Shown in pieces: positions 9,524 through 59,424 of a stretch of DNA of 60,331 nucleotides. Source of the stretch: a virus. Numbering within the stretch: the first letter of the stretch is position 1; every line of letters begins with the position of its first letter. Under the pieces are notes generated by a model. The model ran no database searches. It was not told where the DNA came from and worked only from the letters and a program-made list of their open reading frames with translations. The translations under genes and the position numbers were made by a program. The stretch lies in IMG/VR virus record IMGVR_UViG_3300044641_010300, positions 1 to 60,331 of that record; one strand, written 5' to 3'.

Positions 9524-9537
9524 CGATGATATTTTTA

Positions 9538-10428: not shown

Positions 10429-10446
10429 TGTTTCTAATTTTAATTT

Positions 10447-10458
10447 GGAATATATATC
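10447..10458 (-). promoter_or_regulatory. Late-promoter-like TATA box, divergent intergenic region
   Basis: On the minus strand this reads GATATATATTCC, 18 bases before the ATG at 10428. The site is near-palindromic, so it reads GGAATATATATC on the plus strand, 23 bases before the phoH-like ATG at 10482. It could therefore serve both directions in the 53-base divergent gap. It belongs to the set of GATATATA sites described in the findings. Confidence 0.55.
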
Positions 10459-10481
10459 AAAACAATTCACAACACTAAAAT

Positions 10482-11183: not shown

Positions 11184-14100
11184 TTATCTCTCTCTGAAAG
11201 TTGAATTTTCATCATCTTTAATATTGAGACCAGACCCAAAATCAGGTACGTTTTGAGATCTGATTGCTAGTTGTTCCTGGAAAATAGACCTATCTAAATC
11301 TGCGGCTTGAGATTGAAAATCTCTATTTTGCGGAATAAACCCATAATCAGCGGAGTTAACAAACAAAGGATTTGGATCATTTGCCTGCGGGATAGATTGA
11401 TTGACTACCGTGATAAATGCGGGCTTTGAAATTTCGTAAACATTTCCGGCTGAATCCTCCACTGAATTTTGAATTGAATAGTACCCAGACTCAGTAAAAG
11501 TGTAAATGAAATAGGGGGTAAATTTAACATCTAAAATTACCTGTCCAGTTCTAGCATCACTGAGAACCCATCTATTGTTATTTTTACCAAAAATCTCTGA
11601 ATCATAATTCGAAAAGAACACGGTGGAAAGCATGGGAACATACAATTGATTATTGGAATTGTGAACATCAACCCAAGTCCAAGCTCCGGACCCTGCTCTT
11701 GAAATTATGTTCCCCAAATCGATTCCTCTGGGGGATTTATAACTTTCTAGGAAAGATATGAAGGGGGAAAAATTAGAGGGAGGATAGGGAAGACTAGCAG
11801 GTCCAGTAAGACCTTGATTTGTTCCCGAGACAAAAATATTCAATTCAGGAGAAACAGTAAAAAATAAATCATTTTGGGTGCCGGTCATTCCAACATCAAA
11901 AGTTGAAAGAGAATCAATAAAAGTTCCAGACACACTTCTTTTTATAATTATATTACCACTACCAGTAAGACCAGGTTGTAAAGGATAATTTACAGAAAGA
12001 TAGTAATCTTGATTCCCCCTTATACCTTGAACGTCCGTAATTCGAGTAACATAAACATCCTCGTAAGAAGATGGTAAAATTTCGAAAGAAGATTCAGATT
12101 GAAATTTTCCTCCGGGAGAGATAGACAAAATACCAGCTTGCAGAGCTCCAGAGACGCCGGATACAATCAAGTTTGAAGTGGAAGAACTTTGAATTGTAGC
12201 ATCTCCAGTGAAAAGATAGGCAGTGTAATAAGTAGAAGAACTTCCAAAAGCACGGATAGTTTTGTTCCATCCCGAATGGTAATTGGGATCATTAATCTCA
12301 TAATTACGAACGAAAGTTCCGGTAATTCCAACAAAATTAGAATCCGACAACAAAATCCAAGGATAAGAATAACCTACATTAGGGTGGGAAATACTTATTC
12401 CACCAAAATTAACATCATGAGTTGATGTTCCGGTTGTCAAGAAAGTTTGCCCGTTAGGTAAACTAACCAATGAATCAGAATATGAATTATTCCCGGTAAT
12501 ACCAATTACCTTGGCATTAACTAAAGAAAAATCTGGATTTAATTCCAAAACGAAAGAGCTTGGCTTGTAAATATTGTTTTCAATGGGGCTAAAAATGAAT
12601 TCGGGTGCAAAAGGGAAGTCGCTTTCATTACCATATTCATTTTTTAAAGTTGAGTATCCCCCGATAAAGTTACTCATCAATCTGATCGAATTCTGACTGA
12701 TCGCCAGTTGGGTACCTCCGCTCACTCCTATGCCGGAAGGGTAAAATCCGGTGGGTCCTGGGACAGGATTTAAGGCTGAATCAACAGCAGGAAAATATCT
12801 AAATTTTTTCAAATTAAATCTTGATTCCAGAGATTGTGTAGCAAAATCAATTCCGCCGTAACTTGTTTGGTCTCCCAATTCAAAATCAACTTCAGCTATA
12901 AAATAAGATGGATTATCATAAATTAAAGAAGAATCTGGAATATAAACTCCAGAACCAGAAATTGGAGAATTTAGAATCCATGGATAATCAAACGTTCCAG
13001 TTATACCAGGTGTTTCTAAATTTGAAAAACCTACCGGACCTCCTGTAGGTCCGGTTATTCCAGTAATAGTAAGGTCTGCAGAGTTTGGAAATCTGGTATT
13101 CCACACAAATTTTCCAGCTTCTAAATAATAAGTAAATTTACCAGTGACAATTAAAGTTTTTCCATCATAAGAAGGTTTAGCATCAAAAACTCTGGAAGTG
13201 TCACCTCTAAAAGGAATCACTCCCTGAACTTGTCCTTGGTCGGTATAAAAAGCAACAAATCCCGTTTCTTTATTTCCTGCAGTAGCTCCGGTTGGGTTTG
13301 GATTTTCGAAAATATATTCTTCTTCAGTATTACTAGATGGGCCAAAATTAATTGTTTTACCATTTAAATAACCAGTTACAACATTTAAATTTGCAAATCT
13401 ACTTGTCGAAGTTATCACAACATACGGATTCGTAAAAAGAGGAGGAGATGAAGAGGTAATTCCTATCATCCATGAATAATTTGGGATTGATTGGGCTTGT
13501 ACTTGCTGTTCGTAAGTTGGAATCTGTCCCCAATTCCAATAGTTTTGATTTTCCACCTCTCCGTTAGCAATGGATTTGAAGTCAGCGGTTAGAAAAAGGT
13601 TTCTGGGATCCATTCCGGGATGTGCCGCAGCCAATTCTGAATTGTCATATCCTTGCCAAGATGGATAGATCCAATTGTATTTTTGAACCTTGGGCAAAAG
13701 GACTTGATCCGAGGTTGGACCAGTTGCTGAAGGTGTATAATATAGGAAATTCCATCCAGTAGTTCCTTCATACTTACTCGATGCATAAAGATGTGGAATT
13801 ACATAGTCAAATAACACAATATTATTACCCGAAATTATCCAAAGATCATTTGGATAAGTCGTCAAACCATTCTCAATAGATTTAGTTGTGGCAAGATCAA
13901 AATCAACAATGACGTCCGAAGGTAAATTCGAATTAGAAGAATTAAAATGGGTGAAAGTGACACCATTAAAATGATAGAAGCCATTCGTAGTTGGGGGATT
14001 AGATTGTGGGTTGCCACATCTAAAAAAAACATGACCGTTGGGTCTAGCTACAACTTTAGTAACAGGTAAAAGAACAGGCACTGCCCAATTGTAAAACTTT

Positions 14101-29038: not shown

Positions 29039-29707
29039 TTATCTAGTTTTACTCACCGTAGAAAGATGGTCAGGAGTAGAAGGAACCACGGGAGGAGAAG
29101 TGGGAGCACCCAGATTACCAACATGGGTGTGTGAATTAAAATAAGTTTGAAAGGTATTACCTTTTATCACTGCCTCGATGGCAGCTTCGCCCAGTTCTAT
29201 ATTATTAGAGTTAATAATCACTTTGTTATTTTCCATCCGAATTTGGTCTTGCCCCATTTCAATTACGATTCTCAGCTGACCCCCATCTTGAGTATCCAAT
29301 TGAATTTTAGCATTTCCCAGAGAAAAAACAGCTCCCTTTTTTTTAGTGTAAAATAATGTTAAAGGTCCAGGCTCAGCCTCTGTGTCATACATAAGAACCT
29401 GTGCGCCTTCATAGGAGTCAGCTATCTCGGCTAACATGTCCTGGGCATAGTCCTTCTCCCCATAATAGTTCATCTTGTAGTAATTCTGGCCATCGAACTG
29501 AACGACAACAACAGCTCCTAATTTTGGGATAGAAATGGTACCCGCTCCGCCCCTTCCAAAAGACAACCCACTGATTTGACTAGCCCACGGAATGTCCTGG
29601 TCCTCCAAACCATCAAACAATCCAAAAACTCTGATTCTAGCTCGGCCAGATTTTCTGGGATCGTTGATATCTACAACCTGTCCTAAATAAAAACGGGGGC
29701 TTGACAT
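29039..29707 (-). CDS. Baseplate spike protein, gp5/gpV-like OB-fold
   Basis: This 222-residue protein has the gp5 OB-fold signature at its start: FYLGQVVDINDPRKSGRARI, then VFGLFDGLEDQDIPWA and an SIPKLGAVVVVQFDG segment. The C-terminal part carries the short strand repeats and the FNSHTHVGNLGAPTSPP motif commonly seen at the end of spike proteins (DSHTH-like). It lacks the lysozyme domain of T4 gp5. The gp5/gpV protein forms the trimeric needle under the hub that pierces the outer membrane. It overlaps the start of the VYP-repeat gene by one base and precedes the 915-residue gene by two bases. Confidence 0.85.
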   Translation of the reverse strand: MSSPRFYLGQVVDINDPRKSGRARIRVFGLFDGLEDQDIPWASQISGLSFGRGGAGTISIPKLGAVVVVQFDGQNYYKMNYYGEKDYAQDMLAEIADSYEGAQVLMYDTEAEPGPLTLFYTKKKGAVFSLGNAKIQLDTQDGGQLRIVIEMGQDQIRMENNKVIINSNNIELGEAAIEAVIKGNTFQTYFNSHTHVGNLGAPTSPPVVPSTPDHLSTVSKTR

Positions 29708-32067
29708 TACTGTTCGTCTTCTATTTCTTCAGTGGGATTAAAAGTACCTAAACTAGGGTTAAATTTAGTAGAAGGTTTCATGTTTCCTAAATTCAAAGGA
29801 GGCTCTATGATAAAATCTCCTACTGTGGGGGGATAAACATCCCCAAGACCACCTTGAATAGGCCTTGCCCTCGGGATCTCATAGACAGATCCAGGAGGTT
29901 CAGTAAAAGAATTTTCTCTGGCTCTAAGCTCTCCTGCTATATTTGCAAAAGTGCTAGGAGCATAAACTTGTTCACGTGGCAAAGAGTCTGTAAAGTTGTT
30001 TTCTGTATAAACATCTCCTCGAGTGATGGGGTAAACCCGATCAGGAACTCCCAAATCCGGTCCAGGTACACCAGAATAAATGTCCCCTATGGGATCAGTG
30101 GGATAAACCCTATCAGGTACACCCAAATCTCTACCTGGAACATCCGTATAAACATCTCCTCCGGGAATAGGATAAACTCGATCGGGAACTCCTAGATCTG
30201 GCCCAGGTACATCCTCGTATACATCCCCACTTGTAACTGGATACACCCGATCGGGAACACCGAGATCTGAACCAGGAACTTGGTCATAAACATCTCCCAC
30301 TGGATTTGGATAAACTCGATCAGGAACTCCCAGATCTGTCCCTGGTACATCCGGGTAAACATCCCCAACAGGTCGAGGATAAACTCGATCCGGGGGTCCT
30401 AAATCGAGTCCAGGTACCGTATCATAAACGTCTCCTGTAGGAACGGGATAAACCCGATCAGGAGGACCTAAATCCTGGCCAGGTACAGAATCATACACGT
30501 CTCCAGTAGGGGGTGGATAAACTCTACCTGGAGCTCCTAGATCAGTACCGGGAACTCTGGGGTACACGTCTTCCGGAGGAGAAATTGGAGGGTAGGCTCT
30601 TTCTGGTGGACCTCCCAATCCCACCTTTTGCGGGTTGGGCAAATTGCCTTTGAAAATGTTATCTATGCCGGTTGACGCTGCTCCATTGAGGAAATTTTGA
30701 GCATCGTTAAAGTTAAATCCATTTGGGGTAACCATTCTCCCAATTTGAGATGGATTGAAAGAATAAATGTTGCCTAGGAGGGATTGGTTTAATCCAGACA
30801 GAGCAGGATTGACAAATTGGTTGACCCCTTCATTAACCAAATCGTTGACAGCAGCAGAAGTGAAATTGGTTATCAATTCATTAGCTTGGCTGGCGATGGT
30901 TTCCAAAGTTAAGGCGGCAGTTTGTACAGAAGATCTTGATTGGTATGCCCCATCTGCTAGAATCAAGGGTTTTTTATCGTTTCGAATGTTGGGATATTGA
31001 TTTTTCATTCTGACTTTCCCCACGTGAATCTTAAAACTTTGTTTGGCCATCAGTGAATCTGCCGAGGAGCTACCCATATCAATTGTAGAAGCTAGAGGAG
31101 TGCTGGTGCTAAAATCAAATTCACACTGGTGACACTCATAAATAAAAACGGGTTTGATGCCACTTTGATCTTGTTGATTGCGGAAAGCCTGCACATCATT
31201 TTGTAAACCAGATTGACCAAACACATTCGACACAAAACTGGTAAAAGAGTTGCCTGGATTTCCGGACACATTTTCGATGGGGTCTTCTATGCCCAGATTT
31301 TGAATATTAGAACCAGGATTGCGATTGGTGGTTAAAACATTAGATAAATTATCTAAAGAAGCCAAAACAGTTGACGCACCAGTTAGTCTAGAGGTTTTAA
31401 AGAAATTCCTAATTTCCGTCACGAAAATATACATCGTGAATTTTCTCAAATTTCTGGGCACTAGCCATCTCATGTTATCGGCATCGAACATAGCGGTTTC
31501 GTACAAGTCTGCCAAAGCAGAAATTCTCAAATTCAAGGATTCTAAGCAACCAATTGTTAAAGTTTTACCGTCTGTTTTTTGGGGATTGAATCCATCAAAA
31601 CCCGCTTCATCTTGGAAACCAGTTCTGGTAATTTTATCTAATTTATCTAATCCTTCAATGGATTGAAAAAACCAAGGAGAATTATTATTAATATTATTTA
31701 ATAAAACCTGAAATTGTCGCAAAGCATTGGCTCTTTTGATACGATCGGATTCTGCTCCAAAAGCTCCTTCTCTCTGTAACAAATAATTGTAAGTGGAATA
31801 ATAAATAGGTCCACCTAAATTGTAAGCAGGTTGTCCAAAAGGGTTTTCAAGTCCTGATGCCATCCCGGCCCCATTGCCGGCGGTATAATTGGCGATTCGC
31901 AGCAATGGACTCGGAGCCCAACCATATTCAGGATTGACAGGTAAGGTGCCAAAATCAAAGACAAACTTGAAACCCAAATATGTGGGGTCCTCATTTTTTC
32001 CCTGATCTGAAAGTCTAAATCCTTTCAAAAACAAATTTCTATTTCTGTCTGTGGCCTGAATTCCCAT
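29707..32067 (-). CDS. Baseplate/tail protein with C-terminal VYP tandem repeats
   Basis: The first 450 or so residues of this 786-residue protein are a globular part. It starts with KGFRLSDQGKNEDPTYLGFKF and ends in Asn/Gln-rich helices. The remainder is a run of eight 23-residue repeats, GDVYDSVPGQDLGPPDRVYP and variants, preceded by related degenerate text and ending in a ninth partial copy. A tail of about 80 residues, containing PPTVGDFIIEPPLNL, follows. The repeats are rich in P, G, D, V and Y and look like extended or polyproline-like beta turns. The gene lies between the gp27/gpD-like hub gene and the spike gene, so it probably binds the hub or central needle. The family is unknown. 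Confidence 0.75.
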   Translation of the reverse strand: MGIQATDRNRNLFLKGFRLSDQGKNEDPTYLGFKFVFDFGTLPVNPEYGWAPSPLLRIANYTAGNGAGMASGLENPFGQPAYNLGGPIYYSTYNYLLQREGAFGAESDRIKRANALRQFQVLLNNINNNSPWFFQSIEGLDKLDKITRTGFQDEAGFDGFNPQKTDGKTLTIGCLESLNLRISALADLYETAMFDADNMRWLVPRNLRKFTMYIFVTEIRNFFKTSRLTGASTVLASLDNLSNVLTTNRNPGSNIQNLGIEDPIENVSGNPGNSFTSFVSNVFGQSGLQNDVQAFRNQQDQSGIKPVFIYECHQCEFDFSTSTPLASTIDMGSSSADSLMAKQSFKIHVGKVRMKNQYPNIRNDKKPLILADGAYQSRSSVQTAALTLETIASQANELITNFTSAAVNDLVNEGVNQFVNPALSGLNQSLLGNIYSFNPSQIGRMVTPNGFNFNDAQNFLNGAASTGIDNIFKGNLPNPQKVGLGGPPERAYPPISPPEDVYPRVPGTDLGAPGRVYPPPTGDVYDSVPGQDLGPPDRVYPVPTGDVYDTVPGLDLGPPDRVYPRPVGDVYPDVPGTDLGVPDRVYPNPVGDVYDQVPGSDLGVPDRVYPVTSGDVYEDVPGPDLGVPDRVYPIPGGDVYTDVPGRDLGVPDRVYPTDPIGDIYSGVPGPDLGVPDRVYPITRGDVYTENNFTDSLPREQVYAPSTFANIAGELRARENSFTEPPGSVYEIPRARPIQGGLGDVYPPTVGDFIIEPPLNLGNMKPSTKFNPSLGTFNPTEEIEDEQ
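30019..30573 (-). repeat. In-frame 69-base tandem repeat, eight copies
   Basis: Eight units encode GDVYxxVPGxDLGxPDRVYPxP. Seven units are 69 bases and one has a 3-base insertion (TDPIGD), so the array is 555 bases. The amino-acid pattern is well conserved, while third codon positions vary widely. Confidence 0.95.
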
Positions 32068-38144: not shown

Positions 38145-39035
38145 TTATTCGCTTTGGAGAATTTCTTCCAACTTTGAGTTTTCGATTGAATTGGTTAGAA
38201 TTCCTCTTAAATTTTGAATATCACTTTTTCTTTTTTCTAGTTTTTCGACATTTTTCGGATCGATCTTCTCTGACAATGTCTTTTTCAATTGTTCAATTAA
38301 ATAAGATTCTTCTGTTAGACAATCCATTTCTAAAACGCATTTGGTAAGATAGGTACAAATCTTGTTTTCGAACAGATCAGTCAAAGATTCTTCGGATTCA
38401 TGAAATTTCCCGGCGGGACCTCTGAATTCCATCTGGTATTTGTCATTTTTTCTTTTAATTCTAACATCCGGAAATTTAGCATCTGATGATTTGTAAATTT
38501 TGAAGTCAGAAAAAAGTTCAGATTCTTCTGTTTTTTGCATTTCGATTTGCATCCCATTATCCAATGTTAACTCGTAAAGGCCGGGAAACCTAGTTTTGGT
38601 ATTTTGAACATCCGAATGTATTCCAAACAAATCCAACAGTATTTGAGTGCTTTCTGCAATTCTTTCTGAATCTTTTTCTTTTTTTATGGCATGAGATTCT
38701 ATGAAATTATCAACGAATTCTTCCATTTCTTCTCTATTTTTCAATTTCGAAAACCACTTAGTGTGAGGTTTAATGTGGATAACTGCAGAGTTGGGATTAG
38801 ATTTCATCTCACAGCAAGATTTTGGGAATCTGACTTTTTTATTTTCGTGAAATATTTCAATCCAATTTTCATCTATAGCATAACCAATCATGCCCTGATT
38901 GGGCTCTGGATAAACCTGAAGTTTAAGAGACCAGTTTGCCAAAGGACCTATGATTCCCAGGTTTTTCTTGGATGTTGATTCTGATTCGTTTAGATTTGTA
39001 AAATCTGAAAAACTAGGAATTGTATTCTTATTCAT
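38145..39035 (-). CDS. Candidate packaged (internal) virion protein with N-terminal targeting-like peptide
   Basis: I prefer the ATG at 39035 (MNKNTIPSFSDFTNLNE) over the longer frame to 39071. It has the same N-terminal form as several proteins near the capsid gene: a short peptide with F..F and a terminal LNE followed by S, here after residue 17. The 297-residue protein is otherwise mixed alpha/beta with a charged C-terminus (LKKTLSEKIDPKNVEKLEKR). If the prohead protease acts as in T4, cleavage after E17 would release residues 18-297 inside the head. No enzymatic motif was identified. It overlaps the 144-residue gene before it by 8 bases. Confidence 0.65.
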   Translation of the reverse strand: MNKNTIPSFSDFTNLNESESTSKKNLGIIGPLANWSLKLQVYPEPNQGMIGYAIDENWIEIFHENKKVRFPKSCCEMKSNPNSAVIHIKPHTKWFSKLKNREEMEEFVDNFIESHAIKKEKDSERIAESTQILLDLFGIHSDVQNTKTRFPGLYELTLDNGMQIEMQKTEESELFSDFKIYKSSDAKFPDVRIKRKNDKYQMEFRGPAGKFHESEESLTDLFENKICTYLTKCVLEMDCLTEESYLIEQLKKTLSEKIDPKNVEKLEKRKSDIQNLRGILTNSIENSKLEEILQSE

Positions 39036-39462
39036 TCTTACCAAATAAAACTGTAATTCTAAAGTCGGCAACTTTAGCAGACTTCTTCATGTCTATATGT
39101 AAAAAAGTAGGACTTGTAGGGATTAAAGATTCTCCCTTTCTAACCACAACCAAATTTGGATCTATATTTTCACCCGGAACAATCTCAAATTCAAATTCTT
39201 TAGGGTCATCTGGATGGTCGTCGACTTTTAACTCCAGCTCAATTTGATTTATCTTAAATGAAATATCTTGAACTCCTTCTTTTTTTCTTTCTATTGAAAT
39301 TTCATATTCTATTTCACACTTTAAATCATCTACATCTGACAATTCGGGAGGTCTGTTTGTTAGCTTGACATCCAAATAATCCAAGGGACAGGTGAATGTA
39401 TACTCTGAAGTGAAATTTTTTTTCTTCTGTACAGAATATGAACCAAAATCTTGAATTCTCAT
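39028..39462 (-). CDS. Small protein of unknown function, first gene of operon
   Basis: This 144-residue protein starts MRIQDFGSYSVQKKKNFTS. It is rich in acidic residues and beta-forming segments (ISFKINQIELELKVDDHPDD, then FEFEIVPGENIDP) and may be a compact beta-sandwich. It starts 17 bases after a GATATATAGA box, so it opens the operon that runs toward the baseplate cluster. It overlaps the next gene by 8 bases. The function is not recognised. Confidence 0.75.
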   Translation of the reverse strand: MRIQDFGSYSVQKKKNFTSEYTFTCPLDYLDVKLTNRPPELSDVDDLKCEIEYEISIERKKEGVQDISFKINQIELELKVDDHPDDPKEFEFEIVPGENIDPNLVVVRKGESLIPTSPTFLHIDMKKSAKVADFRITVLFGKNE

Positions 39463-41365: not shown

Positions 41366-42088
41366 TTATTTTGTAGGTTGGATCAAACTTGTAAATAAAT
41401 CTTCTCCCGCGGTATTTGCGATCTGAGTTGGATTGGCTTGATTTAAAGATCCCAGATTTGCAAAGAAGTTGGTCAGCATAGCATTTTTTTCTTCTGGTTT
41501 TTCTGTTTTGATTCCCGCAGATTTTGCTTTTGTGGCCAGGTCGTTTTGTAATTTTGCTTTTTCTTCAGGCTTAAGAGATTTTTGAAAGATTTCTACAGAC
41601 TGTTCGGGAACTCCACCAAACAACATCAGATAAAAAGATTCCAATCTTTTGGCAAAATCTTTTCGGGTAACCTCATTTGCCAATCCTTCTTCGATTGTTC
41701 TATAAATAAAACCATTAGTATCGGTTACACCCAAGGCTTTGGCTACTTCTCCGAATCCCTTTTCAACTAAAAACTCCATGGTAGCATTAGCAGCTTTTGG
41801 GGCAAGATAACGAGCATTCATCTTCGATTTGAATAGAATAGCGTAATAATCTTTAACCTCAATTTGTTCAACAAAGTTTTGAACCAGTTTACTTAAAATT
41901 GTGCCTTCTCCTATACCCAAATATTCCATCAGATAAGCTGTGACCTTACCCTTGAGAACGTCGGTAAAAGCATCAAACCCTTTGTTAAAAAGATTACCTA
42001 AAAAATCAAAAGAGAAAAACGAATCGTTAGCTTCTTCAATTTTTTGGGAGGTAAACTGGTCAAAATTTTGGACTTTCTGAATTTTCAT
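41366..42088 (-). CDS. Candidate packaged protein with targeting-like N-terminus
   Basis: This 240-residue protein starts MKIQKVQNFDQFTSQKIEEAND. Its F..F spacing and an I-E-E site (after residue 19, followed by A) resemble T4 capsid-targeting sequences. The body is helical and hydrophobic in parts (FFSFDFLGNLFNKGFDAFTD, MEYLGIGEGTILSKLVQNF). No enzymatic motif is seen. It starts 14 bases after a GATATATAGA box and is followed by the 114-residue gene and a terminator, which makes a two-gene late transcription unit. Confidence 0.65.
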   Translation of the reverse strand: MKIQKVQNFDQFTSQKIEEANDSFFSFDFLGNLFNKGFDAFTDVLKGKVTAYLMEYLGIGEGTILSKLVQNFVEQIEVKDYYAILFKSKMNARYLAPKAANATMEFLVEKGFGEVAKALGVTDTNGFIYRTIEEGLANEVTRKDFAKRLESFYLMLFGGVPEQSVEIFQKSLKPEEKAKLQNDLATKAKSAGIKTEKPEEKNAMLTNFFANLGSLNQANPTQIANTAGEDLFTSLIQPTK

Positions 42089-47819: not shown

Positions 47820-48089
47820 CTAGTATATGTTTGTTTTATCCCCTGATTTTTCTTTTGCTTCCATCGCCGTAGCCAGTTTGTTCAACATGGCAGGTAAAGC
47901 AGCGTATAAAGTTGCCTGTTTTTTTAAACTGGCAGATTTTTGTGCTACTTCTGTTTGGTTTTTTTCATTTTGGATCTCATCCCGAATCGCCTGTAATTGG
48001 TCATTGACCGCTTTTTTTGCATTCACCAAATCGGAATTTATATCCTCGTTGAGTTGAAAATCGTTTAAATTCAAAAGAATTTTAGTCAT
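47820..48089 (-). CDS. Small prohead-core-like protein with cleavable N-terminus
   Basis: An 89-residue, mostly helical and charged protein. Its first 15 residues, MTKILLNLNDFQLNE, end in a L-N-E site followed by D. The rest (AKKAVNDQLQAIRDEIQNEK) looks like a coiled coil, as in prohead core or small internal proteins. It overlaps the previous gene by 8 bases and ends 2 bases before the 820-residue gene. Confidence 0.7.
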   Translation of the reverse strand: MTKILLNLNDFQLNEDINSDLVNAKKAVNDQLQAIRDEIQNEKNQTEVAQKSASLKKQATLYAALPAMLNKLATAMEAKEKSGDKTNIY

Positions 48090-48993
48090 ATCTTCTTGCT
48101 AAAGTTATTTTCGTTCTAAGATCTCCTATTTTGTTGGTGTGGTAATTTCTAAGATCCCTGATTTCTTTTCGCATTTGGGCTTCACTCATGCCCTTTCTTT
48201 TAGCTTCATCCTCGAATTTTTCTAAATCCAAATCTCTGAGTGCACACATCTCATTTTTAACCCTAGTTAATTCCCGAATCAAATCCCTAGCATCTTCTTT
48301 ACTCAATTCCTCTGCATATTTTTCAAACTCAGAACCAGAGTAGGACATGATTTTATTTAGAGAATCCTTAGATAATTTTGACTGTCCATAGTATTTCGGA
48401 GATTTTTTGGTAGTAGAGGATGAAACAAGAGACGAAGAAGGCAATTTCATGTCGCCATATTTCTTTCTGAAATCTTCATCTTTTTGTTTTGCTATTAAAG
48501 CTGCCTGTTTATATTTATCATATAATTCTTCACCCAAATCAGGATCTGTGAGTTTCTTAGCAACATCATATAATCTCTCAGCAATTTCTTTTTCCGCCTC
48601 AGTTTTTTTTAAATTCCAATAGGACACCAATTTGGAATCTTTGTCCACAATTTTTTTCACCTTTTCTTCTAGCTCCATCACGGAAGAGTTCTTTTTACTG
48701 AGCATAGAATTGAGAAGTCTTTCATTCCTTTCAATCATTCTGTCCAATTTTCTAGATTCGGCTGGGTCGTTAGATATCTGGGCTTTTTGGACCTGTAAAG
48801 AATCAATTTCTGTGACAACTTTATCCCACTCTTTGATGTAATCTTCTTCGATCTGCACAATATCTTCCAAATAAGAATCTATCTTGGACAGGGATCCCCC
48901 GAAAAAAGAACCAAACCAATTCAAAATATCTTTCATCGATCTACCCTCATTCAGAGAATTATAATGGTCCCACTGTTTAAAATTATAAAGCAT
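48082..48993 (-). CDS. Prohead-core-like coiled-coil protein with cleavable N-terminus
   Basis: I place the start at the ATG at 48993 (MLYNFKQWDHYNSLNEGRS). A longer frame to 49023 overlaps the previous gene and spoils the N-terminal pattern. The LNE site is after residue 16 and is followed by G. The 303-residue protein is strongly helical and charged, with long Lys/Glu heptad-like stretches (DKVVTEIDSLQVQKAQ, ELEEKVKKIVDKDSKLVSYW), as in T4 gp22-type core proteins. It starts 14 bases after the 196-residue gene and overlaps the next gene by 8 bases. Confidence 0.7.
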   Translation of the reverse strand: MLYNFKQWDHYNSLNEGRSMKDILNWFGSFFGGSLSKIDSYLEDIVQIEEDYIKEWDKVVTEIDSLQVQKAQISNDPAESRKLDRMIERNERLLNSMLSKKNSSVMELEEKVKKIVDKDSKLVSYWNLKKTEAEKEIAERLYDVAKKLTDPDLGEELYDKYKQAALIAKQKDEDFRKKYGDMKLPSSSLVSSSTTKKSPKYYGQSKLSKDSLNKIMSYSGSEFEKYAEELSKEDARDLIRELTRVKNEMCALRDLDLEKFEDEAKRKGMSEAQMRKEIRDLRNYHTNKIGDLRTKITLARRYD

Positions 48994-49006
48994 CACTTGG
49001 ATTATT

Positions 49007-49597
49007 TTAAGGGGTTGGAGCATTGCTCAGCTTATTCAGCATTTCTTGAGCTTCTTTTTTAGCTTGTTCTAGAGCATCTTTCAAATTTTGTATTTCTCCA
49101 GCTTCTGCTGAAATCTTTTTAGCTTGTTCATATTCAAATTCCGCCAATTCAATCTCCAATTCAGCCATTTTTGCTTTCATGACTTCCTTTAAGCGAGGGG
49201 ATTTAGCTCCTTCCCTTCTTAGCAAATCTTTGGCTTTTTCTAAAGCTACGGTTTTGGATTTAATCATAGCTCTATATTCATTCTTCTTGGCTTCGATTTC
49301 TTCTTTAATAGAATCAACTGCTTCTGTATTAACCGGGGTTCTACCTCTGATTTCTCGAAGTTTTAACTCCATGGATTTCAAAGTTTTTTTAAGTTCATAT
49401 TTTGCCTTCAATAAGTCCTTTTCATACTCTAACATATTATCAATGACTGAATTGATTGTTTTTGTTTTTGAAAATGGCATTAGGCTATCGATTGCATTTG
49501 CCAAAGAATCCATAAATCCTTCTTGAAGATGTGAATTGTCTGATTTTGATTTAAAATGCGAATCAACGAAATGATTGAAATCTTGTACTTTCGACAT
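49007..49597 (-). CDS. Prohead-core-like coiled-coil protein with cleavable N-terminus
   Basis: This 196-residue protein starts MSKVQDFNHFVDSHFKSKSD and reaches an L-Q-E site followed by G after residue 26, again matching the targeting pattern. The body is a near-continuous charged helix (YEKDLLKAKYELKKTLKSME, EIEAKKNEYRAMIKSKTVAL) with heptad spacing, typical of scaffolding-core proteins. It starts 18 bases after a GATATATAGA box and opens the operon that ends at 45355. Confidence 0.7.
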   Translation of the reverse strand: MSKVQDFNHFVDSHFKSKSDNSHLQEGFMDSLANAIDSLMPFSKTKTINSVIDNMLEYEKDLLKAKYELKKTLKSMELKLREIRGRTPVNTEAVDSIKEEIEAKKNEYRAMIKSKTVALEKAKDLLRREGAKSPRLKEVMKAKMAELEIELAEFEYEQAKKISAEAGEIQNLKDALEQAKKEAQEMLNKLSNAPTP

Positions 49598-49688: not shown

Positions 49689-51407
49689 TTAAACCAGACC
49701 GCCAGCAGGCAAGTTAACATTGAAGCAAAGATACATGGTTTCGGGATGGAAACCAGCCTCTACAAGAGCGTAACGAGACTTAACTGCGATTTTAGGAGAC
49801 ATCGTACCTTCAGAGATTGTCTGAATGGATTCTGCCATCATGTAAGGCATGAATTTGAGACCTGGCTCATCATCACCACCTTTTCTTCCAACGAGGATTC
49901 TGGTATCGTTGTACTTCATGTTTTGGTCCACATACACTGTCATACCGGCCAAAGAACCAACTGGGTACAAAGTACCGTTGTTCTGAGTCAAGGTATTAGT
50001 GAAAGGAGCAAAGGTGAATTGGCTGATATCTTGCATTGCCGAAGCCAAGTTTGCGTTGGTAACAATGAAGTTAGCAGGACCTCTTCTACCTCTGTTGGCT
50101 ACTACGTTAGCGGCTGCCAGGATACGAGAGAAAAGTCTTCTCTGTAGAGTTGACAAGTTCTCATAAGTTCCAGAAGCAGGACCTGCAGTACCAGTCATGG
50201 TCAAAGCCTGGTCTGTTTTTCCAACATAAGAAGGAATGGTGTAAGAACCAGCGGTTCCACCGATAACCAGATTCAAATTCAAATTTTGACCCTCTACTGT
50301 GTTGAAGTCATAACAGTTAGACCAGCCCAAAGCAAAAGCTCTGGCTAGAATGTGCTTGTTGATAGCCTGAGAAACCTCATTGACCAGTGCGTTCTCAATC
50401 ATCGAAATGACATCGATACCGAACTGCTTATTGAGGTCTTGAATTTGCTCCGTGGTGACGGAAGCAGCTACTTGGAAAGTGTCGGCTTCTACAAACTTTG
50501 TGAAAGTCGAAAGACCCATCAAGTTGTAGTAGTTTTCTTCACCTACGCTTCTAAGCATTGGGTTGTACGTCTTGGTACCATCAACGAAAGGCCCCTGCCA
50601 GTTTTGGTTGTCGTAGAAACCAGCTCCAGAGAAACCTTGGATGTGATCTTCAAGTGCCTTAACTAGAGAAGCCGAAGCAGTAGTGGTTCCTGCTTGGTTT
50701 CCATCTACTCCAGTACCAACTTTGGTAGCACCTCCATTGATAACAGATGCAACAGATTCCCCTGCAGTGATTGCAGTAATTTCGAAGATTGGGAAACCAT
50801 CGATTCTTGAAAGACCAACAAACTTAGTGGTGATATATTCAGCTGCTGAAGAAGCATTGGTGATGAAATAAGTTGTACCTACTACGAAACTATCAGGATA
50901 TCCTGCAGCATAGGAAGTAATTTGCAGCTTAATCATAGCAGGAGCTGCGGCCAAGGCATCGGCTGCAGTGGTACCTGTAGATTGTGGGCTGAGCTTACCA
51001 CCAGCATACACATAATCCAAATAGGATAGAACACCGGAAGGACCAGACATTGGAATAACTGGAACGATATCGAAACCTACGGTTTTTGCAGCTACCTGAA
51101 TAGCCAAAGGCAAAAGCGAAGGAAACTTATCGCCAGATCCTTGCCAAGATTGGCTGTAGAATCCTTGGTTTGGCGCGTAACCACCAACTGAGCCAGCTTG
51201 AGTTGAGGCTGGGAAAACAGGAGGTGCAACGGCTCCCATACCGTTGACGACGTTCAAAGACTGGTATGCACCAGCAGACTCGTTGAGGGAGTGATAGTGG
51301 CAGTATACAGACAACCACGCTTTTTTGGATGGATCAGTGATACCGGCTTTCTGCTCGATGATAGGCGACCAGGTATCGAAGATCTCAGCTTCATTAATTA
51401 GTTTCAT
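49689..51407 (-). CDS. Major capsid protein, T4 gp23-like
   Basis: This 572-residue protein has the gp23 pattern. The N-terminal helix contains EIFDTWSPIIEQKAG, matching ELLNKWKPLLEGEG in T4 gp23. A pro-segment follows that could be cut at HYHSLNE (after residue 43, before SAGAY), a site for the prohead protease. The C-terminal half has a QIQDLNKQFGIDVISMIENA helix, then GRRGPANFIVTNANLASAMQ and GMTVYVDQNMKYNDTRILVG. These match the GRGEGNFIIASRN and Y-I-D segments of the HK97-fold. The leader is A-rich, without a Shine-Dalgarno sequence. It lies 26 bases after the protease-scaffold gene and before a strong terminator. Confidence 0.9.
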   Translation of the reverse strand: MKLINEAEIFDTWSPIIEQKAGITDPSKKAWLSVYCHYHSLNESAGAYQSLNVVNGMGAVAPPVFPASTQAGSVGGYAPNQGFYSQSWQGSGDKFPSLLPLAIQVAAKTVGFDIVPVIPMSGPSGVLSYLDYVYAGGKLSPQSTGTTAADALAAAPAMIKLQITSYAAGYPDSFVVGTTYFITNASSAAEYITTKFVGLSRIDGFPIFEITAITAGESVASVINGGATKVGTGVDGNQAGTTTASASLVKALEDHIQGFSGAGFYDNQNWQGPFVDGTKTYNPMLRSVGEENYYNLMGLSTFTKFVEADTFQVAASVTTEQIQDLNKQFGIDVISMIENALVNEVSQAINKHILARAFALGWSNCYDFNTVEGQNLNLNLVIGGTAGSYTIPSYVGKTDQALTMTGTAGPASGTYENLSTLQRRLFSRILAAANVVANRGRRGPANFIVTNANLASAMQDISQFTFAPFTNTLTQNNGTLYPVGSLAGMTVYVDQNMKYNDTRILVGRKGGDDEPGLKFMPYMMAESIQTISEGTMSPKIAVKSRYALVEAGFHPETMYLCFNVNLPAGGLV

Positions 51408-51433: not shown

Positions 51434-53461
51434 TTAGAATTTACCTTCTAGCGACTTAGCCACCCAACTTAGGTAATCATTGTTGTAAGGAGTTGGGGTC
51501 TGAGTGTTAGAGGCCTCTGAGAAATTTTCATTCTCTTGCAATTTTTGCAAAGCCAAAGGCTTAGGTCCAAACTGACGAGTTGACCAGAAATTTCTAATCT
51601 GATAAGGGGTGTTAAGATTACGAAGAGCAGCCTGGGCAATAATAGATTGCTTGTGTCCTTCACTCAACGACTCCCAAATCGGAACGTAATCCGTTGGCAT
51701 CTCATCGATGAACTTATGGCCAGTTTTGAATTTGGCTTCATTGTTCTCATTGAGAACTTGATCTGCTTTTTGTGTGTCAGCAGTCGGCTGCCATCTGCTT
51801 GCAGCCTGTTTTTGGTTTGTTTCGGTCTTTTGGGTTTGGACCGACTCAATTAGGAAATCAATTTGTTTGCCGAGATTGGTGTAATCTCCGGCAAAGCCAG
51901 ACTCCGCTAATTCAGTTCTTGAGGCAACTTCTGCCTGTCTCCGTGCGTTGTTTTGAACGACAGGTTGATAACCAACGCTTTCGGACAGAGACTCGGTGTA
52001 AGAAATCGTGCCATTTAATTTTTCGGCGATGTACTCGGAATAGGAGATGGTTCTATTCACATTTTCCGCCAGATATTCCGAATAAGAAATTCCTTGTTCC
52101 AATTTTTCACCCAGGTATTCGGAGTAAGCAATACCTTTATCAAGATTTTCGCCCAGATACTCAGAGTAGGCTATGCCTTTGTCCAAATTCTCGGCCAGAT
52201 ATTCGGCATAGGAAATGTTTCTATCCAACTTCTCTGCCAAATACTCAGAATAAGAAATATTTCTGTCCACATTTTCGGCCAGGTATTCGGAATACGAAAT
52301 TGTGTGATCCACGTTTTCAGCGAGGTATTCTGCATATTGAATGCTGTCATCCAATTTCTCGGCGAGATATTTAGAGTAGTTAATTCCCTTGTCGACATTT
52401 TCTGCCACGTACTCTGAATAGAGAATTGACTTATCTACGTTCTCGGCCAGATACTTAGAGTAAGAAATGTTCTTGTCCAAATTCTCGGCTAGATATTTAC
52501 TGTAAGTGATGGAATTGTCCAAATTCTCGGCTACATATTCACCATACTTGATGGAATTTTCCAAATTCTCGGCCAAATACTCACAGTACTTTTCAAGGCG
52601 GTCTACCCTTTCTTCAAGTTTTTGTGTGTATGAATCCGAGCTTTCTACCAAATTCTGGGTAGACTTAGCTTCCCTAATTTGAGACTCGAGCTCATCCATT
52701 TTTTTCTTTAAGAAAATGGAATAATTGTTGAGTTCTTCACTCGTTACATATTCTTTTCTGGACTCCATGATGTCAATTTTATTTTTTTCTGTTTTGAATA
52801 TTTTTTTGAATTCTTCGTTATCATCAACCTTATATATCATTACTCCCGAATCATTTTTGATTCCTAAGGACTCATTCAAACATTTTAAATCGTGAACAAC
52901 GGAATTTTTGTGTCTATCTGAAAATTCAGAGAATGAAAAACCGGCACTTTCGTACACTCTTTCTAGTTGTGCATCCTGAAATCCAGGATCAGCTACCAAA
53001 TCATAAGTGAAGATTTTTTTGATTTGAACTTTTTTGTCTGGACCCACATTACCAGCGGCACGGGAAGAAATAGAAAGAGGTATTCCAGCATCAACCAATT
53101 TTTTGGCAATTTGACCAGCTGGGGTGTCAAGCAATTTGACCTTGATCTTCAATACCCGACCACTCTTGTCGTACTGTAAATCTTCTATAATGTGAGAAAT
53201 GTTTTTCAGAGAAACGTCAAATTTTTCAGGATGGTCCAATTCTCCAACCAACCTTTTTTGTTTGATTTTATCGTTGAGATAATCTAGATGTGGCAGGTAC
53301 TCGCTTTCCTCGTAGATCCTGTTGTTGTTATTTTCTTTACCAAACTGTGCTGCTATACCCTGTAGAGTGTAGCCATCTGAGGTTTTAGAAGCCTCTACGT
53401 GATGACCTTGCTTCTCCAAAATAAACACCAAGTTCTCGTTCATAAATGGTAGATCTTCCAT
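51434..53461 (-). CDS. Prohead protease fused to repeat-rich scaffold
   Basis: This 675-residue protein is two modules in one frame. Residues 1-165 or so are a T4 gp21-type prohead protease: GELDHPEKFD with His77, then GIPLSISSRAAGN with Ser132/133, then YDLVADPGFQDA with Asp157. The second module is coiled coil and then 14 tandem 14-residue units of the form YSEYLAENLDKGIA (52588-52001), followed by a low-complexity tail containing QQ and NN stretches. In T4 the protease (gp21) and core (gp22) are separate genes, so this is a protease-scaffold fusion. Nearly every repeat holds an L-A-E or V-A-E, matching the protease target L/I-x-E. The gene starts 20 bases after a GATATATAAA box. Confidence 0.85.
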   Translation of the reverse strand: MEDLPFMNENLVFILEKQGHHVEASKTSDGYTLQGIAAQFGKENNNNRIYEESEYLPHLDYLNDKIKQKRLVGELDHPEKFDVSLKNISHIIEDLQYDKSGRVLKIKVKLLDTPAGQIAKKLVDAGIPLSISSRAAGNVGPDKKVQIKKIFTYDLVADPGFQDAQLERVYESAGFSFSEFSDRHKNSVVHDLKCLNESLGIKNDSGVMIYKVDDNEEFKKIFKTEKNKIDIMESRKEYVTSEELNNYSIFLKKKMDELESQIREAKSTQNLVESSDSYTQKLEERVDRLEKYCEYLAENLENSIKYGEYVAENLDNSITYSKYLAENLDKNISYSKYLAENVDKSILYSEYVAENVDKGINYSKYLAEKLDDSIQYAEYLAENVDHTISYSEYLAENVDRNISYSEYLAEKLDRNISYAEYLAENLDKGIAYSEYLGENLDKGIAYSEYLGEKLEQGISYSEYLAENVNRTISYSEYIAEKLNGTISYTESLSESVGYQPVVQNNARRQAEVASRTELAESGFAGDYTNLGKQIDFLIESVQTQKTETNQKQAASRWQPTADTQKADQVLNENNEAKFKTGHKFIDEMPTDYVPIWESLSEGHKQSIIAQAALRNLNTPYQIRNFWSTRQFGPKPLALQKLQENENFSEASNTQTPTPYNNDYLSWVAKSLEGKF
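52001..52588 (-). repeat. In-frame 42-base tandem repeat, 14 copies, with protease-site-like core
   Basis: Exactly 588 bases, encoding 14 units of 14 residues, Y-x-x-Y-[LVI]-[AG]-E-[NK]-[LV]-x-x-x-I-x, with no length variation. A degenerate fifteenth copy follows. Codon third positions vary between copies, so the protein pattern rather than the DNA is held. Confidence 0.95.
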
Positions 53462-56184: not shown

Positions 56185-56955
56185 TTATTTGGTGTTATGT
56201 TCTAGCATTTTAACCAGTCTTTGTATGTATCCTCCTTCGAGGAGCTTACGGTAGGCAGATTGCTCTGCCAGTGATTTAGTCTTGGGGGTGTAAGCTTTTT
56301 TTCTCAATTTACCAAGATTAGATTGGATTTTTTTGATGATCTGCTTTTGGATCTTGGCATCTGCAAACTCCGAACTTTGAATTCTCTCCAATTTTTCGAG
56401 GAGATAACAAACACTCATGGCCTTTTTTTCATCTACCCCAAAATTTTCTTTTTCTTCCAGATTGGGTGGCTTTATCCATTTGTTTTGTTTTAAAGAATAA
56501 ATCCCAGACTTGACCCTAGATTCCCCAACACCTATGACTTCTAGATCGACCTCGTGGCCCCGCAGGGTAACTTCTGGTTTAGATTGCCACAAAAAAGCTT
56601 GGTGATTAATTTTCTCTGCTATTAAAGCTTTTTTTTCTTTTTGGGAATCTAAATCGAAAACAATCTCAACCTCCAATGGAGAATCCTCACTGTAATGTGG
56701 TCCACACATTGGACCAACCAAACGAATATCTGAAATTGTACAACTGTCTCCGATGGATTCCTCAAGATCTCCAATAAAAGACTCCGATATCTTAATTAAT
56801 TTTTTTCTAACGATGGGATCCAGATCCCATTTAGTCTTTCCTGTCGGATGTTTATATTTATCCCAAAATTTTTGACACAAATCAGAACTTAGAGGAGAAT
56901 GGATTGAATCATTCTCCCCTAAAAATTCATCGAAATTAAAAACAGGAAATCCCAA
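56185..56955 (-). CDS. Nucleotidyltransferase-like protein with targeting-like N-terminus, TTG start
   Basis: The only plausible start is a TTG at 56955, giving M/L-GFPVFNFDEFLGEN. The upstream frame has no ATG, and a GATATATAGT box lies 19 bases before it, the spacing seen for other genes. The N-terminus ends in L-G-E followed by N (after residue 14), matching the targeting-like pattern. The middle contains ISDIRLVGPMCGPHYSEDSP followed by LEVEIVFDLDSQ, and later LRGHEVDLEVIGVG. This resembles the Gs...D.D....hD.. layout of the polymerase-beta-type nucleotidyltransferase fold, with changes in the first motif (GPMCGPHYSEDS for GS...SDID). Enzymatic activity is therefore doubtful. It precedes the 880-residue virion gene. 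Confidence 0.55.
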   Translation of the reverse strand: MGFPVFNFDEFLGENDSIHSPLSSDLCQKFWDKYKHPTGKTKWDLDPIVRKKLIKISESFIGDLEESIGDSCTISDIRLVGPMCGPHYSEDSPLEVEIVFDLDSQKEKKALIAEKINHQAFLWQSKPEVTLRGHEVDLEVIGVGESRVKSGIYSLKQNKWIKPPNLEEKENFGVDEKKAMSVCYLLEKLERIQSSEFADAKIQKQIIKKIQSNLGKLRKKAYTPKTKSLAEQSAYRKLLEGGYIQRLVKMLEHNTK

Positions 56956-57005: not shown

Positions 57006-57707
57006 CTACAATTTACTTGCAGTAAGTAAAACTTGAATTACAGTTTCAACGTCTTTTTCACAATAGACCTTGATTCTTTCAAAATCTTTTTCTACCCAGA
57101 ATGTGGAATGGACCTGGGATCCGTCTATATCTTCTTTAGGAGATTCAACTCCCATCGAACAAGAAAGTAAGTCTAAACTTAAATATTTTTGCTGACTCCA
57201 GCTACCGAAAGCGAAAATTTCAGAGGTGTCCAAAAATGGAATTTCCCATGGTTTTTTATCCCAGACTTTTAAATTACCAGGAAGTTCAATTCCATTGTAA
57301 ATCATTCTTTTGCCCACACACGGAACATCAAAACCTTTAATGTTGTGCCCAGCAAGTTTCATGCCTTTGGTCATCGAGTTGGAAAGGACTTTTTTTGTCT
57401 TAGTCAGAATATCAATCTCATCTTCTCCATAAAAAGAAATAAATCTTGTACTTTCATCTTCGTTGATTGTACCAAAAGAAATACACACAATCCTGGAATA
57501 TTCTGGTTCTAGTCCCGCTTTTTGGAGGTAAATTTGATCACTAGTAGAGTTTTGGAATTCTGGATAGGATCTGTAATATTTTACCCTTCTTTCCCAGAGT
57601 TTAGCTAATCTAGGATTTTCTTCGCGGAGACATTCCAAGTCTGGACACCAACCAGCAGTTTCAACATCGAAGAAAAGACAATTTTTGAGGATTGAAAGTG
57701 GGATCAT
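57006..57707 (-). CDS. DEDD-family 3'-5' exonuclease
   Basis: I use the second Met (MIPLSILKNCLFFDVETAG, ATG at 57707). It lies 2 bases after the previous stop, while the longer frame overlaps that gene. The 233-residue protein has the DEDD layout. Exo I is FFDVET, Exo II is AGHNIKGFDVPCVGKRM and Exo III is VYCEKDVETVIQ, with a Tyr four residues before the last Asp (DEDDy). Between them lie a YYRSYPEFQNSTS insert and a PFLDTSEIFAFGSWSQ segment. Such enzymes remove nucleotides from 3' ends and serve proofreading, repair or DNA degradation. Family is clear; role is inferred from its place next to an Fpg-like glycosylase. Confidence 0.85.
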   Translation of the reverse strand: MIPLSILKNCLFFDVETAGWCPDLECLREENPRLAKLWERRVKYYRSYPEFQNSTSDQIYLQKAGLEPEYSRIVCISFGTINEDESTRFISFYGEDEIDILTKTKKVLSNSMTKGMKLAGHNIKGFDVPCVGKRMIYNGIELPGNLKVWDKKPWEIPFLDTSEIFAFGSWSQQKYLSLDLLSCSMGVESPKEDIDGSQVHSTFWVEKDFERIKVYCEKDVETVIQVLLTASKL

Positions 57708-57709
57708 AG

Positions 57710-58507
57710 TTATTTTTTTGTATTCCATTTGGGATTAAACCAAAAGGTTCTACCGTTTTTATCTGTTATTTTAGACATCAGAGGATTGCCGTAGCACAAC
57801 ATAAATTCATCCCAATTGGTAGGAATTTTGCCATCTGGATTTTTCCAATCTTTAATTCTACCCCCGCCGAGAGTGTAGGCTATGGTAGGTAAATCCCGAC
57901 ACAAATCTAAAATAATCGGGTGTTGGGCGATGTAATCTCCAGCGGCCTTAAAGGGGTCAGAGTCAATGCGATATAAAATTTCAGCTCTTAAATAGTTGCC
58001 AATTCCGTTGAAGAATTTTTGGTTCATCAAAACTTCATGAATGGGTTTCTCGAATGCTTTTGATTTCAAATTTGATAAGACATGAATTTTAAATGCTTCA
58101 AAATCTCTAGCTGGATCCGGACCTCGTTCCGGATTCCAAGATTCGAAAGACCATCTACCAAATCTTCTTACATCTACGAAACACACTTCTCCTTCAGAGG
58201 AAAGAAAACTTAAATGTGTGTGTTTAGGTCTTGAACCCAAATCTGCCCATTTGAAATGACCAGACATGCCCATAGTCATTTTTAAAGAAAGAATTTCAGA
58301 TTTGGTTGAAACCGGAAAATCTTCCATGGTTTCTAATAACAAAAGCATTTCCTTTCCTCTGGAAGTGGCTTGAATTTTAAACGGAGATTCTAAAGTAAAT
58401 TCCTTTCCTTTGTGTTCTGGATTTTTCCAAACCCCATGGAAAATTTTACCCTGTGAAATTTTTTGAACATATTCCGCGGTTAATCTGACTTCTGCTAATT
58501 CTGGCAT
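57710..58507 (-). CDS. Fpg/Nei-family DNA glycosylase
   Basis: This 265-residue protein begins MPELAEVRLTAEYVQKISQG, with the catalytic proline at position 2 and Glu3. K52 in SRGKEMLLLLE corresponds to the conserved lysine. The helix-two-turn-helix contains FFNGIGNYLRAEILYR. The C-terminal finger region is DKNGRTFWFNPKWN, without the four zinc-binding cysteines, as in zinc-less members of the family. The conserved Arg in GRTFW is kept. These enzymes excise oxidised bases and cut the backbone by a Schiff-base intermediate on Pro2. It lies 35 bases after the UvdE-like gene. Confidence 0.9.
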   Translation of the reverse strand: MPELAEVRLTAEYVQKISQGKIFHGVWKNPEHKGKEFTLESPFKIQATSRGKEMLLLLETMEDFPVSTKSEILSLKMTMGMSGHFKWADLGSRPKHTHLSFLSSEGEVCFVDVRRFGRWSFESWNPERGPDPARDFEAFKIHVLSNLKSKAFEKPIHEVLMNQKFFNGIGNYLRAEILYRIDSDPFKAAGDYIAQHPIILDLCRDLPTIAYTLGGGRIKDWKNPDGKIPTNWDEFMLCYGNPLMSKITDKNGRTFWFNPKWNTKK

Positions 58508-58542
58508 GGCGTAAAAATAAACAAATTAATTCAACAAATTTC

Positions 58543-59424
58543 TTAAATTTTTGGAATTATCAAAGGAATCAAAGATTTGTGTTCGGACAAATATTGGATA
58601 CAAGTTTTATAGGAATCTGGCGATTCAACAACAACATCTACATCCAAACCAAAAGTTGGAATACGGTGGGATAACCTTACAGAGGAATTTGGAGAGATTG
58701 AAATTCCTTTGTCATCTAAAATAGAACTTTCTCCGTGAAAATAAATTGGCTTATAAGGAGATTCCCAAGTAGAGCAACTTAAAAATAGAGCCTCTCTAAA
58801 ATTTAGACCCCCAGAATTAAATTGATGGGGTAGGGATCTGAAACAAATTGGAATTTTAACAGGGTAAAAAACTCCAGCTAATAAATCAGTTACAGAAAAA
58901 AGAGAGGGCTTATCATCATTTGTGACGGCCAGCATTTTTCTGATAGACAGCGGAAATTTTTGTATTTCTTCACAAAATCTCTGGGCAGTTTCTTTTCTAT
59001 TACCATAAGCACTTCCTACTCTGAGCAGCACACAAGGTTCAGAAATGCCCAATCCTTCTATCAAAGAAGCAAGTTTTCCTATCATCACATGGGTTTGTTC
59101 GACAGAATCTGGCAACTTTGAACCTAGAAAAAAGTGTTGTGATAGGAAAAATAAAATTCTGTGGGAATGAACTCTTAGATTTTGACTTAAATTATCTAGA
59201 AGGTTTAAATCTGAATGGCCTTCTTCCAAATTGGAAAAATCTGGCAAATTGTAATCTGCTTCGGTTAATTGAAAACAAGTGACATCTATCCCGTTTTTGA
59301 CGTGTCTGTCGATTGTATCCGACACAAATTGCAAAAATTGTCTGGGTGAAACTTCATCGTTCCTTGTGAACTTGAAATTTCCAACAATAGAACCTAATTT
59401 GTGAGGGGTTTTGCTTAAAATCAT
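58543..59424 (-). CDS. UvdE-like TIM-barrel protein with lost metal ligands
   Basis: This 293-residue protein follows the UV damage endonuclease layout: LGISEPCVLLRVGSAYGNRK (128-144), KMLAVTNDDKPSLFSVTDLL (163-182) and VKIPICFRSLPHQFNSGG (189-206). In active enzymes these blocks carry metal ligands. By memory-based alignment the His of L-x-H-x-G-G is Arg135, the Glu of L-E-N-D is Thr168, and the Asp of F-D-V-H-H is Arg196. The SFHPGQF strand is replaced by LFFLSQHFF (91-99). The fold looks kept but the catalytic centre is not. The protein may have become a binding or structural partner, or the residues may have moved; no activity should be assumed. It lies 34 bases after the 160-residue gene. 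Confidence 0.6.
   Translation of the reverse strand: MILSKTPHKLGSIVGNFKFTRNDEVSPRQFLQFVSDTIDRHVKNGIDVTCFQLTEADYNLPDFSNLEEGHSDLNLLDNLSQNLRVHSHRILFFLSQHFFLGSKLPDSVEQTHVMIGKLASLIEGLGISEPCVLLRVGSAYGNRKETAQRFCEEIQKFPLSIRKMLAVTNDDKPSLFSVTDLLAGVFYPVKIPICFRSLPHQFNSGGLNFREALFLSCSTWESPYKPIYFHGESSILDDKGISISPNSSVRLSHRIPTFGLDVDVVVESPDSYKTCIQYLSEHKSLIPLIIPKI

Follow-up and report, generated by a model that had tools for sequence, protein, structure and literature searches.

The head scaffold of phage T4, gp22, is cut at multiple sites into fragments by the prohead protease gp21 (PMC9026906), and we count 16 [LI]xE motifs in its 269 residues. The T4 proteins IPII and IPIII begin MKTYQEFIAEA, and the cut site in T4 gp23 reads FGSFLTE↓AE (arrows mark known or predicted cuts throughout). 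In the capsid-targeting sequence of IPIII, residues 4 and 7 direct targeting, whereas processing requires residues 8 and 10 and is inhibited by an aspartate at residue 10 (PMC9026906). N-terminal signals on head proteins, many of them cut by a gp21-like protease, are also described for the head propeptides of SPN3US and phiKZ and for the packaging signal of P1 DarB (PMC5694885, PMC10052503, PMC9024508); in SPN3US the cut falls after A-x-E, the SPN3US and phiKZ propeptides are mostly long, and the accessible parts of these papers report no tandem repeat. Protease-scaffold fusions occur in the huge Lak phages, with an acidic low-complexity region and without the repeat described below, of which the accessible part of the Lak description makes no mention.

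Here we describe a putative protease-scaffold fusion in a virus (IMG/VR record IMGVR_UViG_3300044641_010300), whose complete stretch of 60,331 nucleotides we refer to as the window. The earlier note on this DNA took a self-shredding scaffold fused to its protease to be a non-standard arrangement, but both the fusion and the multi-site cutting of a scaffold (T4 gp22, PMC9026906) were already known. What is new, as far as we found, is that the presumed scaffold is a tandem array of a complete targeting and cleavage tag, and that the same tag recurs across many proteins. A literature search for a repeated scaffold, in journals open without subscription, returned nothing relevant.

A gp21-type protease fused to a repetitive domain

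The fusion protein and its parts are arranged as follows.

51434..53461, minus strand: protease-scaffold fusion, 675 aa, one ORF with known relatives
52937..53416, minus strand: gp21-type (S77/S80) prohead protease domain, residues 16-175, assigned by profile, fold and alignment
52589..52936, minus strand: linker, residues 176-291, with a conserved LNE↓S at 195-197 (52871-52879) just past the protease
52589-52630, minus strand: degenerate first unit, residues 278-291, at the end of the linker
52001..52588, minus strand: 14 tandem 14-residue units, residues 292-487, consensus Y-S-E-Y-[LIV]-[AG]-E-[NK]-[LV]-D-x-x-I-x
51959..52000, minus strand: degenerate 15th unit YTESLSE↓SVGYQPV, following the array
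51437..51958, minus strand: C-terminal region, residues 502-675, with [LI]xE↓[SNG] at E520, E539, E572, E601 and E643

The N-terminus of the fusion matches Peptidase_S77 of Pfam (34.3 bits, cut-off 27) and, also above cut-off, S80 (28.4 bits vs 23.4); in PHROGs, the protein matches phrog_207, 'head maturation protease', at 7e-38. The top Foldseek matches of the protease domain are chains of 5JBL, T4 gp21 (E 1e-8, TMt 0.60-0.63), with which the catalytic residues His77 (GELDHP) and Ser133 (SISSRAAG) align, GELDHP facing GELNAP and ISSRAAG facing VASRGLG. The protein in 5JBL is an active-site mutant. Both catalytic columns are invariant across 34 relatives, and a major capsid gene of the Gp23 family follows immediately downstream. 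Judged by profile, modelled fold and alignment, the N-terminal domain is a T4 gp21-type prohead protease, and the earlier note was right to see one fused to a presumed scaffold. It shares with gp21 (Peptidase_S77, 5JBL) the fold, the His/Ser positions and a gene adjoining that of the Gp23 capsid protein, and may share the L/I-x-E specificity, but differs in being joined to a presumed scaffold domain in a single chain.

No scaffold family was among the Pfam or PHROGs matches of the fusion protein; weak Pfam matches on the repeat (LTI65, FERM_F2, PSCyt2) lay under the curated cut-off and were set aside as matches of composition. Like T4 gp22, the presumed scaffold domain sits between protease and major capsid protein, is mainly helical (here in a low-confidence prediction) and is rich in [LI]xE, but the T4 sites are irregular, whereas here they recur in tandem, one per 14 residues. 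Homology to gp22 was considered and rejected, the BLASTP match (E 0.31) being low-complexity only.

An old array maintained by selection on the protein

The array consists of exactly 14 units of 14 residues, with zero indels and one degenerate unit on either side. The earlier note had already described 14 units of equal length; its end coordinate differs from that of the array proper (52588..52001) because the weaker 15th unit follows. Its estimate that 12 to 14 units carry LAE or a close variant can now be sharpened, as [LIV]-[AG]-E is present in all 14 (nine LAE, two VAE, two LGE and one IAE). Composition shuffles of the array held on average 5.9 and at most 13 [LIV]xE motifs (5000 shuffles), compared with the 14 observed.

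Synonymous divergence between units is near saturation (pS 0.81) at a pN of 0.23, and both synonymous codons are used at E7, Y1 and Y4 across units. The array is therefore old and maintained by selection on the protein; such selection had already been suggested in the earlier note. Its exact tandem length could also be read as the product of recent replication slippage of DNA, an array without a selected role, but besides the near saturation of synonymous sites, this is opposed by the retention of the array in hundreds of stretches, and in megaphages at 33-39% overall identity. Given the codon data, we rule slippage out and allow it practically no chance.

Elsewhere in the window, a very long structural-looking ORF (11184-16049) contains a T/P-rich repeat (TPTLTPTPTQTLTA) that is repetitive at the DNA level over 14862-15237, and a tandem repeat with a 69/138-base period (30005-30524) lies within ORF 29707-32067.

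Spread and conservation of the repeat

A tblastn search confirmed relatives of the repeat at 436 places in IMG/VR; the best 80 were retained for comparison. The repeat is also found in the LR megaphages, whose genomes span 462-735 kb. No cultured phage of the INPHARED collection has it, the only matches there being uncultured LR megaphage records, and a search of GTDB genomes gave no relatives; the repeat thus appears restricted to phages as far as the GTDB search reaches. As a clade marker for the carriers, bS21 was tried and discarded, since it occurs in LR756501/502/504 and one contig, is absent from most carriers and is not diagnostic. A second protein of LR756501, 207 aa long (L048:1120-1743), combines collagen-like GxSGSSG stretches with three 14-residue scaffold units.

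Among 76 distinct proteins, unit spacing is 14 at nearly every step, and the rare 28-residue steps are single degenerate units that leave the period unbroken. Comparing copy number between relatives, as the earlier note had advised, gave 13-16 units per complete protein; six proteins gave a count of 9, at least some of them because a single degenerate unit interrupts the array. Between nearer relatives the units at the two ends correspond in order, and gains and losses affect those in the middle. A fixed unit length, 13 to 16 units and matched ends around a middle that turns over would be expected of a molecular ruler, in which the number of units sets the length of the rod and thereby head size. 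However, copy number is nearly constant across wide divergence and a ruler leaves E7 without explanation, and we regard it as very improbable.

Position 7 was assessed in 947 units (325 distinct), gathered by a rule blind to that position. It is E in 939, K in 5, Q in 2 and D in 1, and none of the other 13 positions has an entropy as low; positions 3 and 10 are acidic too but swap readily among D/E/K/N. The glutamate to which the earlier note had pointed is hence kept more strictly than any other residue of the unit and is almost never D. Relatives lacking it, which the note would have held against cutting, are the exception: most keep E, but LR756500 (L038), which retains the 14-residue period, has N, V or S in place of E in several units. 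Cutting of every unit is therefore not needed there, and the N-terminal tags of this phage retain [LI]xE despite the losses in its repeat. The residue after the glutamate, P1' of a putative cut, is N in about 66% and K in about 21% of units.

A conserved face on a predicted helical rod

In the best heptad register, 14 residues are two heptads with A6/I13 and S2/L9 forming the core, and Y1, Y4 and E7 fall at heptad positions c, f and b and thus point outwards from the predicted coil. Their entropies are 0.33, 0.29 and 0.17 bits, against 1.93, 2.82 and 3.23 bits for their heptad twins at positions 8, 11 and 14. Since one outer-face half is strict and its twin half variable, coiled-coil packing alone does not account for the conservation; some reader of the outer face on every second heptad would distinguish the two halves of the unit. 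Structure prediction, another suggestion of the earlier note, yielded the long helices (AlphaFold2; residues 276-390 and 398-495), but with a mean pLDDT of 52, and <50 over most of the repeat, the model is too uncertain for details.

These features raise the question whether the repeat is purely structural, a helical rod (coiled coil or helix lattice) whose tyrosine pair and glutamate are packing contacts and whose LAE is left uncut. The two heptads have a clean a/d core, long helices are predicted, the period persists in LR756500 despite the loss of E from several units, and the three units in the collagen-like protein of LR756501 suggest a structural module; a glutamate inside a long helix could be retained for packing. 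This explanation nevertheless seems unlikely to us, given that the strictest positions face outwards and belong to just one of the two heptads, that the conserved residue is E and almost never D, and that the T4 tag and the tags at protein N-termini in these phages share the signature.

The unit resembles the T4 capsid-targeting sequence

Compared at the level of sequence, the unit Y-x-E-Y-L-A-E reproduces the targeting and processing tag Y-Q-E-F-I-A-E↓A of T4 IPII and IPIII. Residues 4, 7, 8 and 10 of the IPIII tag (Y4, F7, I8, E10) correspond to unit positions 1, 4, 5 and 7, with equal spacing of targeting and processing residues in a shared Y-x-E-[FY]-[IL]-A-E. An aromatic pair at i,i+3 followed by aliphatic-x-Glu is found in 924 of the 947 units, while its chance in a random 14-residue unit is about 0.3%, as estimated from the interior motif rate in a related 434-kb contig, G007 (34 matches in ~114,000 residues, ~13 of them the repeat itself). 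The difference is one of arrangement: T4 has one N-terminal propeptide on its cargo, whereas here there are 13-16 internal copies in the scaffold and single copies elsewhere. The T4 tag is N-terminal and 10-19 residues long, which holds for the tags on other proteins only and for none of the internal units. The earlier note had read the units as cleavage sites, and each does contain [LIV]xE, but having seen the last three residues only, it missed both the match to the whole tag and the tags on other proteins.

N-terminal tags on other proteins

The tags found in the window, with examples from G007 (L154-L175), are the following.

38985..39035, minus strand: N-terminal tag MNKNTIPSFSDFTNLNE↓SE of ORF 38145-39071, from tag scan and homologues
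42032..42088, minus strand: N-terminal tag MKIQKVQNFDQFTSQKIEE↓A of ORF 41366-42088, from tag scan and homologues
48045..48089, minus strand: tag-like N-terminus MTKILLNLNDFQLNE↓D of ORF 47820-48089, no homologues among the loci compared
56914..56934, minus strand: single tag F-D-E-F-L-G-E↓N of ORF 56185-56955 (TTG start, uncertain), with the chemistry of a scaffold unit, not clearly kept in homologues
L159:3412-4257, L155:1670-3166, L173:16324-17796, L160:18358-19179: tagged unrelated enzymes in G007

In G007, 18 predicted proteins carry a strict N-terminal tag, compared with a mean of 1.3 and a maximum of 4 in 200 shuffles, and only 1 of 1351 interior segments matches it. The consensus there is M-x-x-[IL]-x-x-F-x-x-F-[IL]-N-E↓[SA]. 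The W04 part has 7 N-terminal tags (0.2 when shuffled) and the W01 part 6 (0.3). Two further carriers each have 4 tags in 200 kb (shuffle maximum 3-4), counts that are singly modest, though the sequences are uniform in form. In phages without the repeat, strict tags numbered 0 in PAU (whole), 0 in Phosso (200 kb) and 1 in Lak (200 kb), none above chance; T4, in the same scan, gave its two known tags (IPII, IPIII) and one other match. Tags and repeat thus co-occur across the genomes compared, in a comparison that ignores kinship, and carriers may share both by descent. An alignment of 38 strict N-terminal matches includes T4 IPII/IPIII and, the motif being short, a few likely chance matches. 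P1' among tags is mostly A/S, with A, S, N, G, E, D and M all occurring.

The tagged proteins of G007 include an RNase_T-type 3'-5' exonuclease, a MoxR-like AAA ATPase, a CHAP-domain protein, an L,D-transpeptidase-like protein and a RimK-like ATP-grasp ligase. To judge by their sequences, these enzymes are probably carried in the head of a large uncultured phage.

In LR756500 (L193), the W03part ORFs 7835-8746, 8758-9531 and 10318-11793 are clustered and encode different proteins whose N-termini are almost identical (MKYIQTYKDFL[IL]E or MKYIKSYENFIFE). LR756501 (L186-L190) shows a motif of its own, DPYGEE, usually followed by xW, which occurs 9 times in 6 proteins within 100 kb, sometimes near the C-terminus; it is absent from the other phages compared and may be a second peptide tag of LR756501.

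Putative cleavage sites in the head gene cluster

Downstream of the fusion gene lie three further head or head-like genes.

49689..51407, minus strand: major capsid protein, Gp23 family (Pfam Gp23, 4.5e-38), with SLNE↓SAGAY at 51279-51287
49007..49597, minus strand: core-like helical protein, with F-x-x-F near its start and LQE↓G at 49520-49528
48082..49023, minus strand: core-like helical protein, with tag MLYNFKQWDHYNSLNE↓G and site at 48946-48954

SLNESAGAY is present in each of the 14 sequences listed among 57 distinct capsid homologues found by BLAST and is the likely maturation site of the capsid protein. Core-like proteins retain [LI]NE↓[GSAK] while the preceding sequence diverges; for the protein at 49007..49597, [LI]NE↓G is kept in homologues with diverged propeptides. 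Of the seven conserved Glu columns in the fusion's C-terminal region, six are preceded by [LIVM]-x, five of them at >=0.8 and one at 0.74; E539, E572, E601 and E643 are among the conserved columns and E520 is not. The conserved sites fit an L/I-x-E specificity as in T4, and the conserved L/I-N-E sites on other head proteins are in keeping with the L/I-x-E rule on which the earlier note had relied. Near the head genes, a DNA repair cluster (window 57006-59424) encodes a PolB-type exonuclease, an Fpg/Nei-like glycosylase and a UvdE-like endonuclease.

One point speaks against cutting at the units: their P1' is N/K, whereas it is mostly S/N/G at the conserved C-terminal sites and A/S in the tags. 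The main rival to full shredding of the scaffold is partial cutting, in which cuts fall at the flanking LNE↓S, LAE↓S and LIE↓S and possibly within E↓N or E↓S units, the E↓K units resist, and the rod leaves the head or stays there as a few larger pieces. The E↓K units are a recurrent minority, and a serine at P1' is preferred by the SPN3US protease according to the accessible part of its description (PMC10052503). On the other hand, the predicted sites have a broad P1' (A, S, N, G, E, D, M), N and K also occur at such sites outside the units, in tags and core proteins, with E↓K at core-protein sites, and E7 is retained in E↓K units as well. We consider partial cutting somewhat unlikely.

A proposed scaffold of tandem tags

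The explanation that we favour and think rather likely is a scaffold built of tandem targeting and cleavage tags, which is dismantled at maturation by the same cut that releases cargo. The fusion protein would serve a large T4-like phage as head scaffold and carry the gp21-type protease at its N-terminus. Its repeat would form a long helical rod with a packing core of A6/I13 and S2/L9, displaying the signature Y-x-x-Y-[LIV]-x-E outwards on every second heptad; the aromatic pair would send proteins to the core, and the gp21-type protease would cut at the aliphatic-x-Glu, as in the T4 tag. The scaffold would thus present 13-16 tags in tandem and each cargo protein a single one at its N-terminus. 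Once the shell closes, the protease would cut after E7 in the units, and at the [LI]xE sites of the linker, the C-terminal region, the capsid protein and the cargo tags, turning the rod into 14-residue peptides that may escape and setting the cargo free.

The cargo tag may further be a one-unit copy of the scaffold, by which cargo docks in the helical lattice of the scaffold until one cut at the glutamate frees both. We put this forward tentatively, as possible though not probable, and direct binding of tags to scaffold units is speculative.

A scaffold of this kind would by its nature be a rod, with the pattern of cuts built in. Its tag would help to recognise, by sequence, the proteins that large uncultured phages pack into their heads and perhaps inject. 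If cargo does dock in the scaffold, the tag would predict the head-packed and injected proteome from sequence alone, and the predicted cargo would include a 3'-5' exonuclease-like protein, a MoxR-like ATPase and an ATP-grasp ligase.
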